A stretch of DNA of 64,000 nucleotides, taken from NCBI RefSeq assembly GCF_016906995.1, contig NZ_JAFBBD010000006.1, forward strand, positions 186,001 to 250,000. Direction: 5' to 3'. A model generated the notes under the pieces. That model did no database searches and was not told the DNA's origin. It saw only the letters and a list, made by a program, of their open reading frames with translations. Below are positions 41,786 through 64,000 of the stretch, piece after piece. How positions within the stretch are numbered: position 1 is the first letter of the stretch; every line of letters begins with the position of its first letter. Origin of the DNA: Spongiibacter marinus (GTDB lineage: Bacteria > Pseudomonadota > Gammaproteobacteria > Pseudomonadales > Spongiibacteraceae). The translations under genes and the position numbers were made by a program.

Positions 41786-42110
41786 AGAGAATCCAGCCTT
41801 AATTTGGGTGTTTCGACATATAGAGCATAAAACTTCCATAGCATCACAACTTATTGATAATTATAATGAATATAACAGATAAACTCAGGCAGCGGCCTCT
41901 GTTATGTAACGTTTCTATTCCACTGTACGGCCAGTAGCTATCGATCCAACAAAGCTTGTCAATGAAATCATGGTTACTGTCAGCAATTCCGTATTAATTC
42001 CAAGTAAGGCAGATTCCAACTTGGCTCACCAGGGGGATTTCCGCGATGAGGGGTAGGCTAGGGCGGTAAAAGCGTTGCTATTAGCCACTTCTATCCTATC
42101 TGATATGAAA
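41786..42110. other. Non-coding AT-rich junction between catabolic region and island
   Basis: About 325 bases without a credible gene, AT-rich in the first half. It probably contains the left boundary of the mobile island because composition and gene content change here. No terminal inverted repeat or target duplication could be identified by eye. Confidence 0.5.
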
Positions 42111-42751
42111 CTATAGCGATTCCTGAAGTTGTTTAAACCGGCCCTGGATCACCGCCTTTTCCTGAAGAATCACCTTGTTCTCGTCCGTCAGAAACATCAC
42201 TTTGTCTTGGGCAGTTTTCAATTCGGCTTTGACGGTCTCCATAGCTTGGGACAACACGGCCACTTGCTTATCGACATCTGCTTTCTGAGCGGTGAGCACT
42301 GCCATATTTTCCGTCAATTGGTCATTTTTATACTGGTATTCCCGGCACTTCGTCACGGCTTCTTCATGCTCGTGTTTCAGCTTCTGGATATCTTCTATCT
42401 TGCCGTTCAAGTCGCTGCGTAGCACCGCATTGGCCTGTTTTAATTCATCAGCATTGCGTTGTAACTGCGCATTAGCGTCAAATAGCTCTGTCGTTCTCGA
42501 CTCTGCCTGAGCGAGCCGGTGTTGCAGATCCTGAATCTGATCCTTCAGCCCCTGGTTAACTGAACGGGATTGTTCGCGCTCCTGCTGGCGGTCTTCTGCT
42601 GTACGCTGCTGGTAATGTTCGAAATGGTCGCGGATATCACGATCCGTTCAATTTGCTGTCTAGTCAGGCGCTCTGCCCGCATCACAATGGCTGGGAAAAT
42701 ACTGGTGGCAGGCGGCCGATTTGCAAATTGACCCGGTAAAAAACCATCCAA
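42111..42751 (-). pseudogene. Frameshifted coiled-coil DNA-binding protein (TnpT/KfrA_N-like)
   Basis: The 3' ~175 codons (42111 to about 42640) are open and encode a long coiled coil: HFEHYQQRTAEDRQQERE, LAQAESRTTELFDANAQL, ending FKQLQESL. Upstream the frame is closed, but the adjoining frame continues the same protein (RAERLTRQQIERIV), and losing or adding one base near 42640 joins them. There is no proper start or N-terminal DNA-binding domain, so it is a remnant. Similar proteins accompany tyrosine recombinases as TnpT in Tn4651-type transposons or occur as plasmid KfrA proteins. Confidence 0.6.
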
Positions 42752-58412: not shown

Positions 58413-59390
58413 TTAGCCTAAGAAGGTTTGACGCGGAAGATATCGTCGGCTGTCACCCCTAAAATTTTCCATCAAAGTGCTTAGCGGCTCAGGAAGTTCA
58501 TCAAATGAAGCTGGTGCCTGTGTTAGTTCTTTCAACTGATTGTCGATAGTTGTGCGATCAAAAAAGTGCAGCACCCAAAATAGAAACATCATTTGCTCCC
58601 GTTCGTTCTCTTCGACAAGGCCGAGTTGGGCAGCATGCCAAACGATTCCGGTGTTCACCTGTATTTCCCCGAAAATGGTATGGAAATTTGGCGGTGACGA
58701 AAAGTATGCGGGGAAATATTGAACTGCAGGTATTGTAAGTTTTTCGGGCAAAGGTGAATTTTTCAGGATAAATCCTTCATATATATGGTGGTAAAATTCT
58801 TCCGCTATGAACATAAAGGGACGGAAGCTGGCGAGTCTGGATATCAAATACATGACGGTCCATTTGGCCTCAATGTACGGATGAATCCAATTTTTGATTT
58901 CGCAGACCCGGATAAGGATTAATAATGCTGCCAGGGCGTCCATATTATTCAACATGCTGATTCGATAAAGCTGACTACGGTCCGTCCATTTTCGCCATGT
59001 CCGATTGCCCGTGACTTTATCGGTCTCTTTTAGACGCTCGATCAATGCCGGATCCAATGTCCCTGTGTACGAATCCAGTTCTCCCAGTGAGGCTTCCGGG
59101 TTGGCCAAGACCAGCCAAAGCGGATGCTCAAGGATGCGCCTTGTGCCAGGCAATATCGCTTCAATGGTCTCCACCATTTTCTTACTGCGCTTGAGGCTTA
59201 TTGGCGCCCCTTTTGCGTACCGGTAGAACTTGCGTGGGTAGTGCACCCAGAATTCTGGATCGGAATATTCCTGAGTACTTAAGAGCTCCCGCTCGATTTT
59301 CCCGAATGAGATGTCGCCCATCCGGTGTTTGATGGTCTGTGCATAGAGCCTGCTTGCAATAGAGCGTGCTGTTTCCCTCTGGTTCCCCAT
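58413..59390 (-). CDS. Unknown 325-aa protein in transposon context
   Basis: 325 aa, visibly more AT-rich than the czc and dsb genes. No signal peptide or clear membrane helix; it is helix-rich and aromatic-rich (EFWVHYPRKFYRYAKGAP, FMFIAEEFYHHIYEGFIL, MMFLFWVLHFFDRT). No recognised catalytic motif. It lies between the ATPase remnant and the SprT-like gene on the same strand, beside the Tn3-type transposase. The ribosome site is weak, so expression may be low. I do not recognise the family. Confidence 0.6.
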   Translation of the reverse strand: MGNQRETARSIASRLYAQTIKHRMGDISFGKIERELLSTQEYSDPEFWVHYPRKFYRYAKGAPISLKRSKKMVETIEAILPGTRRILEHPLWLVLANPEASLGELDSYTGTLDPALIERLKETDKVTGNRTWRKWTDRSQLYRISMLNNMDALAALLILIRVCEIKNWIHPYIEAKWTVMYLISRLASFRPFMFIAEEFYHHIYEGFILKNSPLPEKLTIPAVQYFPAYFSSPPNFHTIFGEIQVNTGIVWHAAQLGLVEENEREQMMFLFWVLHFFDRTTIDNQLKELTQAPASFDELPEPLSTLMENFRGDSRRYLPRQTFLG

Positions 59391-59706
59391 ATTTTAATGC
59401 TCACTATTTTCGATGTTTCACAGAGTTCTGCGAAACGCGATTGAAAATCTTTAACAGATTGATTTATAAGAACTATGTTCAAGGTAACTGTGTACCAAAT
59501 GCTTCGTAAAGACTACTAACGGTATTCATCGTAGCTGAATTAATCTGTAGGTCACACAGGGTAGGGAGCCGCGTCGACTCCATGACGCTTTAGGAGAGCA
59601 GAAATAAATTCGAGGGAAGTTACCAATGGGACGAGCAACAATGTGCTGTAGCACGATGGAATCGCAACATGAGAAGTGGTGACTTAGGTTTGCAATTCCG
59701 GCGTTT
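59391..59706. other. Non-coding gap between unknown gene and SprT-like gene
   Basis: About 316 bases with no credible gene. The right part contains GTGCTGTAGCAC, a short hairpin near 59641-59652. The AT-rich left part probably holds the promoter of the 325-aa gene. Nothing else recognised. Confidence 0.4.
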
Positions 59707-60543
59707 TCATGCGGATGTAAACAGGCAGTTGCAGTCCTGACAGGCTATGTTGAGCTCGGGCTTCCCCCATACTTTTGTCAAGCAGCTTGGGCACTGATAG
59801 GTCGTTTTCCGTTTGGTTTTTGAAAGCGGGGGACTATAAAAAGTGTCGTTAGGCAGAAGCTCACTATAGGTCGCATAGAGGTAGGATTCGGGCTCACGCG
59901 CTTCTAGTTGCCTAAGTTGGAAATCCTCGCCTTTTCCGGGGGAGTGCGCCGCTGTCAGGGCCGGCGCGGGGAGCGCTTCCCCAGGCGTGGTGAGTTCACC
60001 GTCATCAGTATTGGTCGATTCCGCGTTGCGCGCCTTTAAGCGGTAGATCCAGGGGAGAGTGAAGGACTGTTCTCTCACGAGTGAGTGACATGCCAGCATA
60101 AACAGTCCGTTCTCAATCGGATAATCGCTCATATGCTGCCCCACAATGTCACCGCCGGGTTCGCCTGTTGAGGAGGGGTGCAAGCCAACTTCGATCATTT
60201 TATAGGCCCATTCTTTGTTGTGGTAACTGCCGCGCCCAGGCGACCCATGGCAATGTTGCCAGCAATGGACCATTTCGTGGACCAAGGTCTGGAGCACCTC
60301 GATAACGCGGGATTGCCCCATGTGGGTGGGATTAATCGCGATTTCGTGGCAACGCTCGCCATCCGGAGAGGCCCAGCGCTCAGGGGCAAAATAACCGAGC
60401 AGGTCCTTTTGGCGCTGAACCGTAAAAATAACGGGAGGTAAAGCCCCGCTAAAAAGGGTGTCATTGAAGTGGTTATACGCCGTCAAGAGAGCCTGATACA
60501 GCGCTTGGGAGGGTGGCGTACGACTGACGTTTATTTCGTTCAT
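59707..60543 (-). CDS. SprT-like zinc metalloprotein
   Basis: 278 aa from the ATG at 60543. The SprT-like domain (about residues 10-120) has the zinc-metalloprotease motif HEMVHCWQH (His89, Glu90, His93). A C-terminal zinc ribbon has YQCPSCLTKVWGKPELNIAC and QDCN. This domain pair is shared with the DNA-protein crosslink protease Spartan and bacterial SprT. A middle linker (about 175-215) is low complexity. It diverges from tnpA across a 44-bp palindrome, suggesting it belongs to the transposon; a role in DNA processing is inferred, not shown. Confidence 0.82.
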   Translation of the reverse strand: MNEINVSRTPPSQALYQALLTAYNHFNDTLFSGALPPVIFTVQRQKDLLGYFAPERWASPDGERCHEIAINPTHMGQSRVIEVLQTLVHEMVHCWQHCHGSPGRGSYHNKEWAYKMIEVGLHPSSTGEPGGDIVGQHMSDYPIENGLFMLACHSLVREQSFTLPWIYRLKARNAESTNTDDGELTTPGEALPAPALTAAHSPGKGEDFQLRQLEAREPESYLYATYSELLPNDTFYSPPLSKTKRKTTYQCPSCLTKVWGKPELNIACQDCNCLFTSA

Positions 60544-60662
60544 AGTACGATTATCCCACAAAACCCAGCGATTTCGGAATGGTGCGATATATCCTGTTTA
60601 TGCGTTATAAATCAGTAATATGAGCGCGATTTATGAACTAAATGCCCTGACGGATATTAAAT

Positions 60663-60668
60663 CATAAG
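60663..60668 (-). promoter_or_regulatory. Candidate -10 element for the SprT-like gene
   Basis: TATGAT on the minus strand lies just outside the 44-bp palindrome. A T-rich palindrome arm sits in the -35 position, so whatever binds the palindrome would cover this promoter. Position-based inference only. Confidence 0.3.
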
Positions 60669-60676
60669 TGATCATA

Positions 60677-60720
60677 AAATAACCAAAAACTGTATCGTAC
60701 GATACAGTTTTTGGTTATTT
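60677..60720. repeat. 44-bp perfect palindrome between sprT-like gene and tnpA
   Basis: Two 22-base arms meet with no spacer, centred between 60698 and 60699 (core TGTATCGTACGATACA, outer arms AAATAACCAAAAAC / GTTTTTGGTTATTT). It lies in the divergent gap, 133 bases before the SprT-like start on one side and 61 bases before tnpA on the other. It could be an operator, a recombination/resolution site or a cruciform-forming element. Confidence 0.9.
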
Positions 60721-60781
60721 CTTGACCAGTTAATGCACTTAGGGCGAGTACTGGTGATGAACTTACAAGGAAGCCAAATCG

Positions 60782-63700
60782 ATGTCCACCTTGCTATCGA
60801 TCGCACCCGCCAAAGAAATAAGGGAGTATGATCGCCCCCCCAAAATAACTGCACCCGACCGTCGTTCTTTTTTTGAGATACCACCTAACGCAAGGCCGTA
60901 TTACAGAAAGTTACGGACGTCTATTAGCCGGCTCAACTTCCTTCTCCAATACGGCTATTTCCGCGCGCGTTTCCGTTTTTATGAACCGGATGCCTATCCG
61001 GCGAAAGACGTCCACTTTCTTATCGGTCATCACCGCTTCCATGACCTAAAGGGCAACTCAAAAGAAGACCTCCAATCCCTGCGCGATGCAATGGTGGGGG
61101 CGACCTCGACTCGCCACCGACAGGAAATTATGCGTTTGGAAGGGTATATCGCCTTCGACCTAGAGGCTGAAGAAAGGTTGCGCGAACAGGCTCAGATCTA
61201 TGCCAACCGGCAGATGAGTAAAACGGACGCCCTAGGTGCACTGGTAACTTTCTGTATTGAGCGGGGAATTGTCTTGCCTCCCATGCAGACACTGGAGGGG
61301 TTGATTGGTAGTACCTTTCAGCAGGAGGAAGACCGGCTCATTGCCGTGGTCGCGACGCACCTGAACCCACAACGCAAATCTGCGTTGCTTGATTTACTGG
61401 AGGCGGGTAGTCACCGAGCGACGTTGCTCAGTGAATCCAAATCGATTGATCAGGCCGTGAAAGCGAAATCACTGAGCAAAAATGCTCAGCGCCTTGAGGA
61501 TCTTCAAGAGTTATACCTCGGGAATTTATCGGTGATCGAAGCGCTGGGCCTTACCGACCAGGCCTTAACCCATTACGCCAAATGGGTCATCAAAGCCAGA
61601 ACGAGCCAATTGGGGCAGTTCCGCAATCCAAATAAAACCTGCTTATACCTATTAGCCTTTGTCAAATTCCAGTTTTTTCAGCGCCAGGATCATGCCATGA
61701 AATCTTTCCTGGCGGTGGTCAAAACCGCCCATAACAAGGCACTCAAAATGGCCAGGGAGCGTGTCTTTGATGAGCAGGCCAAACACGCCCCGATTCTCAG
61801 CGATATTGTGAGTTCACAGCAACGCTTGATGGACTTCGCCAGTGAGATCCTCCGTATTATGGAAGACGAGAGTATGACACCGATACAGAAGAATGAGCTG
61901 GTCCGAAATCTCGCCCTGACGACCCTCGATTTTGAGGATGATGAAGTCAGCGGCAAGGCGAATTTGGCCTCGGAGTATTTACGTCGAGCCCAGGAGCAAT
62001 ACCAATACTATGACACCTTGGAAGAGGGCGCCTTGGCGCTGGATCGTAAGCTCCGGCGTACGGTGAAGTTGTTGACCTTCGAAGAAGAGCACAGCGAATC
62101 TCGTTTGTTGGCGGCGGTCCAGGCTTATCAGCAACACAAACCGGTTCCGCTCACATTTTTAACCCGAAAGGAGCAGGCAGCGGTCACCACCACGGACGGC
62201 TTGCGCGAGCACCTTGTGGTGGCCTTGCTCTTTGTTCACATGATGAAAGCCATCAAGGGAGGGAAACTCAATCTGGCGTATGGGTTTAACTTCCGCAGTC
62301 TGCATAGTTATTTGATTGATGCTCAACGCTGGCAGAGTCAGCGTATGGATCTGCTCAGGCAGGCTGGACTGCTGGAGTATGCGGATTGTGAGACACATCT
62401 TGCGCGCCTGAAAACCAAGTTGAACAAGACTTATATCGCTGTGAATGAGCGCATTGCCTTGGGGAACAACGGGTATTTACGACCAAAACCTGGAGGCCGT
62501 TTTGGTGTTCAAACGCCGGCACTGGAAACGCCGACACACAAATATATTGCCGAACGCCTGAGAGAGTCGGGAAACGTTTCGATCTTGCAGATTCTGCGTG
62601 AGGTCGAACACCATTATCCCTTCCTTGGACAGTTAACCCATCACAGTCAGCGTCATGTCACGCAAGCAGCGAACCCGCAAACTGCCTATGCGGCGCTGAT
62701 GGCCTTGGGCTGCAATATTGGTCCGCACAAAATGGGCCGGCTATCACTGGGTATCAATGCCAACGAGTTGCTTGAATTCGTCAACTGGCGGATGTCGACC
62801 GACAACCTTCGCAAGGCCAATAAATCTCTGACTGATGTCATCGATGAGGTTGCGCTGAGCCGGGTCTATAAGGTGGAGGACGACCGATTGTATTCCAGCA
62901 GTGACGGCAAAAAGGTGACGGTCGCGCCCGAATCGTTACATGCCAAGTATTCATTCAAGTATTTCGGCAAAGAAAGTGGCGTGGCGGTCTACAGTTTTGT
63001 GGATGAGAAGCAGAGCCTGTTTCACTCAACGGTATTCAGCGCGACCGAACGCGAAGCCGCCTATGTACTCGATGGCCTGGTGCACAACACGGCCGCCTTA
63101 AATCGTGTCCACGCCACCGACACGCACGGCTATACCGAAGCCCTGTTTGGACTAACCCATTTTCTGGGTATTTCCTTTGCTCCGCGCATTAAGCGTATCG
63201 AAGAGCAGGGGCTCTACGACTTTCAGGGCAAAGCATATTACGAACAGCGAGGCTACCGACTGTTGCCGCGCAACAAAGTCGATGTCACAACGATTCGCGA
63301 GCACTGGGATGACATGCTTCGTTTTGTCTGCACCATCCGCCTCGGGGTGAGCACCGCCTCCCAGCTATTCGCCCGTCTCAATTCATACAGCAGTGACCAC
63401 CCGTTGTATAAGTGCCTGAAGGCTTTCGGGCGCATTCCCAAAAGCCAATACCTCGTAACCTATTATGATGACTTGCGGCTTCGTCAGCGCGTCCAGAAGC
63501 AGTTGAATCTCGTTGAACTGTCGAACAAGTTCCACGATGCCGTATTTTGGGATCGTAAGAGCGAGTTCCAGGTGGGCGCTAAGGAAGAACAGGAAAAGTA
63601 CACGCTGGCACGATCGGTGATCCAGAACGCGATCATTCTCTGGAACTATCTGACCCTGTCCACCCAGCTGGTTGCCCTTCAAAAAGAGGATCCCGGCGCC

Positions 63701-63895
63701 TACGAGGCCATGGTCGAAGAAATTGGCCGAGGGTCAGTACTGACGTGGCGCCACGTCGACTTTCAGGGTAAATACGATTTTCGTCGACCGCCCAAAATCA
63801 CCAAACGGTTTCCGCTGAAGCGCATTCAGAAACTGGAGGTAAAACCGCCGGAACGAACCATTGAGGAGCGGCTTCAGGAGTGGGACAGGCCGTGA
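60782..63895 (+). CDS. tnpA: Tn3-family transposase TnpA
   Basis: 1037 aa, full length for Tn3-family TnpA, with AAGGA before the ATG. The N-terminal DUF4158 region (FFEIPPNARPYYRKLRTSISRLN; FRARFRFYEPDAYPAKDVHFL) binds the terminal repeats. The C-terminal DDE domain includes HSTVFSATEREAAYVLDGLV, ATDTHGYTEALFGL (catalytic Asp) and AVFWDRKSEF to SVIQNAIILWNYLTLSTQLV near the catalytic Glu. It performs replicative transposition. No premature stop or frameshift is seen, so it may be active. No tnpR, tnpI or tnpS resolvase is adjacent. Confidence 0.94.
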   Translation: MSTLLSIAPAKEIREYDRPPKITAPDRRSFFEIPPNARPYYRKLRTSISRLNFLLQYGYFRARFRFYEPDAYPAKDVHFLIGHHRFHDLKGNSKEDLQSLRDAMVGATSTRHRQEIMRLEGYIAFDLEAEERLREQAQIYANRQMSKTDALGALVTFCIERGIVLPPMQTLEGLIGSTFQQEEDRLIAVVATHLNPQRKSALLDLLEAGSHRATLLSESKSIDQAVKAKSLSKNAQRLEDLQELYLGNLSVIEALGLTDQALTHYAKWVIKARTSQLGQFRNPNKTCLYLLAFVKFQFFQRQDHAMKSFLAVVKTAHNKALKMARERVFDEQAKHAPILSDIVSSQQRLMDFASEILRIMEDESMTPIQKNELVRNLALTTLDFEDDEVSGKANLASEYLRRAQEQYQYYDTLEEGALALDRKLRRTVKLLTFEEEHSESRLLAAVQAYQQHKPVPLTFLTRKEQAAVTTTDGLREHLVVALLFVHMMKAIKGGKLNLAYGFNFRSLHSYLIDAQRWQSQRMDLLRQAGLLEYADCETHLARLKTKLNKTYIAVNERIALGNNGYLRPKPGGRFGVQTPALETPTHKYIAERLRESGNVSILQILREVEHHYPFLGQLTHHSQRHVTQAANPQTAYAALMALGCNIGPHKMGRLSLGINANELLEFVNWRMSTDNLRKANKSLTDVIDEVALSRVYKVEDDRLYSSSDGKKVTVAPESLHAKYSFKYFGKESGVAVYSFVDEKQSLFHSTVFSATEREAAYVLDGLVHNTAALNRVHATDTHGYTEALFGLTHFLGISFAPRIKRIEEQGLYDFQGKAYYEQRGYRLLPRNKVDVTTIREHWDDMLRFVCTIRLGVSTASQLFARLNSYSSDHPLYKCLKAFGRIPKSQYLVTYYDDLRLRQRVQKQLNLVELSNKFHDAVFWDRKSEFQVGAKEEQEKYTLARSVIQNAIILWNYLTLSTQLVALQKEDPGAYEAMVEEIGRGSVLTWRHVDFQGKYDFRRPPKITKRFPLKRIQKLEVKPPERTIEERLQEWDRP

Positions 63896-64000
63896 ATCGC
63901 CAGAATCTGGCTGTGAAAACGCGTCGACCAGTGAACACAGGTGTCGTACGCGACCGACAGATTAGACGGCGCTGAAGTGCGACTCTCATACCCGCTGGCA
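63896..64000. other. Sequence downstream of tnpA, window edge
   Basis: 105 bases after the transposase stop with no gene. The transposon's right inverted repeat would be expected in or soon after this stretch, but no G-rich terminal repeat matching the left side could be recognised. Confidence 0.4.

Follow-up and report, generated by a model that had tools for sequence, protein, structure and literature searches.

The Tn4651 subgroup of the Tn3 family (Tn4651, TnXax1) combines a Tn3-type DDE transposase with a long passenger load and uses TnpS/TnpT, a divergently encoded tyrosine recombinase and KfrA_N-like coiled-coil partner far from tnpA, for resolution. Proteolysis of DNA-bound protein is the established activity of the Spartan (SPRTN) family in eukaryotes. 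We know of no answer to how the Tn3 transposase is removed for replisome takeover. Some Tn3 transposons have toxin-antitoxin pairs in the transposition module, and accessory genes have been gained repeatedly there, not among the cargo (PMC7157771); the text of that paper contains neither 'helicase' nor 'metallo'. The plasmid-borne ArdC of R388 binds ssDNA, has a Spartan-like metalloprotease domain and acts in antirestriction, and its protease residue is not needed for its effect on conjugation (PMC7213743). The literature searched held no paper that brings SprT, the Tn3 family and transposons together.

The locus described here resembles the Tn4651 subgroup in its Tn3-type DDE transposase, long passenger load and a divergent tyrosine recombinase/KfrA_N-like gene pair that shares the contig with tnpA but lies far away from it. 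It differs in having a SprT-like gene (and, in some relatives, a helicase gene and orf188) beside tnpA, in a tnpA whose nearest plasmid relatives are ISVsa19-like (35% identity), and in that no terminal inverted repeats (TIRs) were found for it in the window. As with the toxin-antitoxin Tn3 transposons, an accessory gene has repeatedly been acquired inside the transposition module, but here it is a protease gene with a palindromic site rather than a toxin-antitoxin pair at res. Our tentative reading from sequence, to which we assign a probability of roughly 0.4, is that a mobile-element Spartan-type protease gene with a palindromic control site was recruited more than once into the Tn3 transposition module in marine gammaproteobacteria, and that its product strips DNA-bound protein.

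The locus and its island

The window, the whole 64,000-nucleotide stretch analyzed (C6:186001-250000), lies within a 3.57-Mb genome. The three genes delineated by the initial annotation are real and intact at unchanged coordinates: orf325 (325 aa, minus strand, 58413..59390), the gene for a SprT-like metalloprotein (284 aa, minus strand, 59707..60561) and tnpA (1037 aa, plus strand, 60782..63895). SprT and tnpA are divergent, as had been claimed, across a gap of ~220 bp. TnpA, with an N-terminal DUF4158, matched PF01526 (E 4e-110, profile positions 2-389 of 389) and PF13700 (E 5e-17), and its 565 bits against NF033527 (cutoff 500) identify a Tn3-type DDE transposase. A ResIII-type helicase gene (463 aa, minus strand) overlaps the 3' end of tnpA, with its own 3' end in the window (63874..64000) and the remainder running on to C6:251265; orf188 (C6:251262-251828) follows it. 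By sequence, the surroundings are a metal-resistance island with Czc, Cus and copper ATPase genes.

The order peroxiredoxin-orf325-SprT-tnpA-helicase-orf188 was syntenic in two Spongiibacteraceae MAGs (L036 and L037). Rough dN/dS values were 0.14–0.19 for orf325, indicating purifying selection, and 0.14 for tnpA (against L036); with the helicase included the range was 0.11–0.19, so all three genes are maintained. Positions 59883-60931, which hold most of SprT, the palindrome region and the 5' end of tnpA, were only ~77% identical to L036/L037 where alignable, compared with 93–97% in the flanks, as if this segment had been swapped as a cassette. To the right of the window, homology with L036 stops at the end of a gene for a 252-aa tyrosine recombinase (C6:252241-252999), which is followed by an ATPase ORF apparently lacking its N-terminus. 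The right flanks of the two MAG loci (L036:10167-14755 and L037:11153-15376) hold differing gene sets that by look resemble E1/E2/JAB-type defence operons, and the L036 set also includes patatin-like and metallo-beta-lactamase-like genes.

orf325 had been proposed as part of a general accessory module, and this was refuted. It occurred at only three near-identical loci (96–97% amino acid identity in L036/L037), and searches of 369 class genomes, plasmids, Pfam, NCBIfam, PADLOC, PHROGs and PDB found no further relative and no family assignment. It is restricted to a single lineage and is probably a local passenger outside the recurrent module.

Positions 58413-63895 had also been described as a bounded Tn3-family unit, which we could not confirm. 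No TIRs came to light for the window, for L039 or for the first G559 pair in scans anchored on GGG, in a comparison with those of ISVsa19-like relatives or in a scan of the whole island up to the contig end; around the window tnpA, the only repeat was an inverted duplication of tnpT. A right end far from tnpA may be lacking, since C6 stops at 286437. One candidate for the right repeat (63956-63993) was rejected for want of a left partner.

The statement that the unit carries its accessory genes instead of a resolvase is true locally and misleading for the contig, where divergent tnpS-like (C6:274661-275668) and intact tnpT-like (C6:275801-276922) genes lie ~25 kb to the right of tnpA. The metal-resistance island has at its left edge an inverted remnant of a tnpT-like C-terminus (42110..42641, minus strand), which shares 86% identity with the intact tnpT-like gene across 530 bp. 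The pair and the inverted remnant indicate that the window locus belongs to a larger island, and the TnpS/TnpT-like pair, located elsewhere in this island, would probably resolve cointegrates. Most other genomes (L193, L196-L201, L028 and L029) have a gene or remnant for a ~414-aa tyrosine recombinase near SprT-tnpA, possibly a local resolvase, which is absent near the window pair.

Pairing of SprT with tnpA across genomes

Surveying the order and scanning 84,980 species genomes, we found SprT divergent from tnpA in the closest relatives of the window tnpA. These were L036 and L037 (tnpA 94% and SprT 73% identical to those of the window), L039 (41% and 51%) and a G559 contig (39% and 51%), the last of which also carries a second pair with SprT and tnpA in tandem. 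The divergent arrangement was kept with tnpAs ~40% identical and, in other genomes, with tnpAs ~30% identical. The tnpA tree also contained many related tnpAs without SprT, and no tnpA relatives were found in viral contigs.

A SprT profile search of 392 genomes of the order placed 16 of 18 genes of this SprT subfamily directly beside a Tn3 tnpA (inspection of flanks gave G416 and G694 as the exceptions), with the qualifications that the profile, built from three transposon SprTs of this set and three plasmid SprTs, leans somewhat toward transposon SprTs, and that near-copies (two in G574; G395, G579 and one in G619; G709 and G727) bring the independent count below 18. The tnpA tree requires three label changes or more, and the SprT tree two or more. 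Among eight other SprT genes sampled more widely from the class, only one had a tnpA remnant nearby, and the pairing is thus concentrated in this order.

The pair lies inside terminal repeats in G574, where a Tn3-family element of 49,533 bp is present in two copies (99.99% identical) with 38-bp terminal repeats (GGGGTACTGAGTAAAAATGG..., 35/38). One copy has a 5-bp target duplication (TATTT) and none was obvious at the other. Its gene order is tnpA, SprT, ResIII helicase, orf185, then copper and cobalt-zinc-cadmium genes, and it also carries tnpS-like and tnpT-like genes. The helicase gene adjoins SprT inside the TIR-bounded element and its product is 46% identical to that of the window; orf185 is a relative of orf188, and relatives of both the window helicase and orf188 occur in L194. 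The G574 pair belongs to a convergent class and the window pair to a divergent class. On whether terminal repeats exclude SprT from the element, the convergent class gives the answer: they enclose it in G574. For the divergent class of the window, no such repeats were found.

The association with Tn3 transposases that the initial annotation had suspected withstood refutation, being strong, repeated and, in G574, contained within terminal repeats. The pairing is not due to chance. It recurs in many related marine bacteria, so that SprT appears to accompany these transposons as a recurrent accessory and not as a chance neighbor. We already disfavor, as very improbable, the explanation that SprT is leftover plasmid or phage backbone caught up with metal-resistance cargo and has no role for the transposon. 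Such capture would suit a family that is common on plasmids and islands that are mosaics, but it sits poorly with independent recurrences at fixed positions beside tnpA, conserved catalytic residues and a pairing that persists across ~60% tnpA divergence.

Several SprT-tnpA units lie near the single dif-like site of their genome, which follows the tnpA stop by ~160 bp in G637, ~177 bp in G639 and ~525 bp in G619. Distances were ~9 kb in L036 and ~13 kb in L037 (if G757:C70 is the L037 contig). Dif-like sites were located at L194:6290-6314, L198:6230-6254, L193:5872-5896, L036:16399-16423 and G757:C70:110213-110236; in the window genome, dif is on a different contig from SprT-tnpA.

The SprT protein and its possible roles

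SprT matched PF10263 above the cutoff (E 4e-9), with HExxH at residues 95-99 and a C-terminal CxxC...CxxC zinc ribbon. H95, E96 and H99 were invariant in 23 SprT relatives, and the zinc-ribbon cysteines nearly so. Structure prediction, suggested earlier for both proteins of interest, was informative for SprT (AlphaFold pLDDT 78) but not for orf325, whose model was unusable (pLDDT 44). The best Foldseek match of SprT was human Spartan 6mdw (probability 1.00, TM 0.31/0.46, E 0.012), and 6mdw/6mdx were its best PDB matches by both sequence and fold, with modest TM-scores. The protein thus shares the SprT domain and HExxH with SPRTN/Spartan and bacterial SprT-like proteins, and differs from them in its own C-terminal zinc ribbon, its upstream cis-site and its membership of the mobile-element subfamily phrog_6361. 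Given the predicted fold and the invariant catalytic motif, it is plausible that SprT clears protein from DNA, most likely while the element transposes replicatively or becomes established.

The subfamily was present on ~2,600 plasmids, 2,188 of them conjugative and often with mob/stb genes alongside, and also in phages; none of the plasmid loci examined had tnpA next to SprT. Since SprT occurs on plasmids and phages without an adjoining tnpA, its role cannot be transposase removal alone, and the motif shared with these tnpA-free loci means that a Tn3-specific task is not required. We propose that SprT is most likely a DNA-activated protease that would free DNA of bound protein. Its target would be TnpA that stays on the ends once strands have been transferred, or else proteins standing in the way of the new forks, and replication could then copy the element. 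A helicase adjoins SprT in only some elements, and there it may assist. A narrower version, which we think rather unlikely, makes SprT a protease dedicated to taking apart the complex of transposase and DNA at the forks of replicative transposition and co-induced with tnpA through the palindrome shared with plasmids and phages. By analogy only, this would be the counterpart of ClpX on the phage Mu transpososome, where transposase removal lets replication start; ClpX, however, is a host unfoldase and SprT an element-encoded protease. A recurrent Spartan-type protease beside tnpA makes the question of Tn3 transposase removal directly testable.

The SprT-tnpA association is well supported. The proposed mechanism is a reasoned guess that faces strong competitors, above all a general role in establishment or anti-defence. 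SprT would then act much as ArdC does, shielding DNA that has just entered the cell or just been copied against proteins of the host, and Tn3 transposons would carry it for the reason that plasmids and phages do; we regard this as a serious if somewhat doubtful alternative. The distribution of the family on conjugative plasmids and in phages fits such a role, as do the antirestriction function of ArdC, itself plasmid-borne with a Spartan-like domain (PMC7213743), and the defence-like genes flanking the unit in L036/L037. SprT nevertheless sits beside tnpA in nearly all Tn3 cases instead of among the cargo, and in the divergent class shares a control region with it. In addition, the SprT family keeps HExxH invariant where ArdC can dispense with its protease residue, and SprT has a zinc ribbon and no Pfam match to the ArdC N-terminal ssDNA-binding domain.

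A palindrome upstream of SprT

The window has a perfect, spacer-less 44-bp palindrome (60677..60720, core TGTATCGTACGATACA; DNA hairpin z = -8.9) between its divergent SprT and tnpA genes. The other divergent pairs first examined had perfect palindromes of 42, 50 and 58 bp, whose cores were identical or closely related to this one and whose arms differed. Related palindromic sites were found upstream of SprT in every Tn3 case examined, and similar ones upstream of plasmid SprT genes with no adjoining tnpA and in some phages. When 2.9 million viral contigs were scanned for exact copies of the 16-bp core, 24 contigs matched, 11 of them with a SprT-like gene in the stretch examined. The best core match upstream of SprT was 12–16/16 in all seven transposon lineages first tested and 11–16/16 in all ten plasmids, with phages mixed; random windows of the same loci, real sites included, reached 12/16 in 4%. 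Ten further loci of the order gave 11–15/16, mostly as symmetric variants.

Variation among 38 sites was symmetric. Both-sided changes occurred in 9 of 10 pairs and covariation was 0.35 vs 0.145 when shuffled (0/500 shuffles as high; slid controls far lower), a comparison in which choosing sites by resemblance to the palindromic core favors symmetry in the inner 16 bases, while the outer pairs played no part in the choice. The palindrome is well supported. In the literature searched we found neither a relevant paper on the core motif nor a description of a SprT-linked palindromic site, and that such a site precedes SprT on transposons, on plasmids and in some phages is new here. The common site may unite plasmid, phage and transposon SprT genes as one regulatory family.

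The pattern of variation fits either a dimer-bound operator of drifting specificity or a structural hairpin. Asymmetric core centers (GCAC or GTGC) on either strand relative to SprT weakly favor a double-stranded site over a transcript hairpin, and the perfect arms could have arisen from quasipalindrome correction without selection. LexA was rejected by eye as the owner of the palindrome, its core spacing being 2 bp too long.

The intergenic region from which SprT and tnpA diverge in the window lineage is built on the palindrome, and the two genes are probably co-regulated. ImmA/IrrE-type proteases cleave a repressor, a precedent for SprT as a regulatory protease that cuts a palindrome-bound repressor and so induces sprT and tnpA once DNA has been damaged or a new cell has been reached. 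A site that is upstream of sprT, falls between the two genes in the divergent class and varies symmetrically as operators do speaks for such control. We nonetheless consider it improbable, because no repressor gene was conserved next to SprT in the plasmid, phage and transposon loci examined and the site of the convergent class is close to SprT and away from tnpA. The 16-bp core was also present within the first gene of an stb-like cluster on two Pseudomonas plasmids (L005:4638-4653 and L091:2090-2105), upstream of the SprT-proximal copy.
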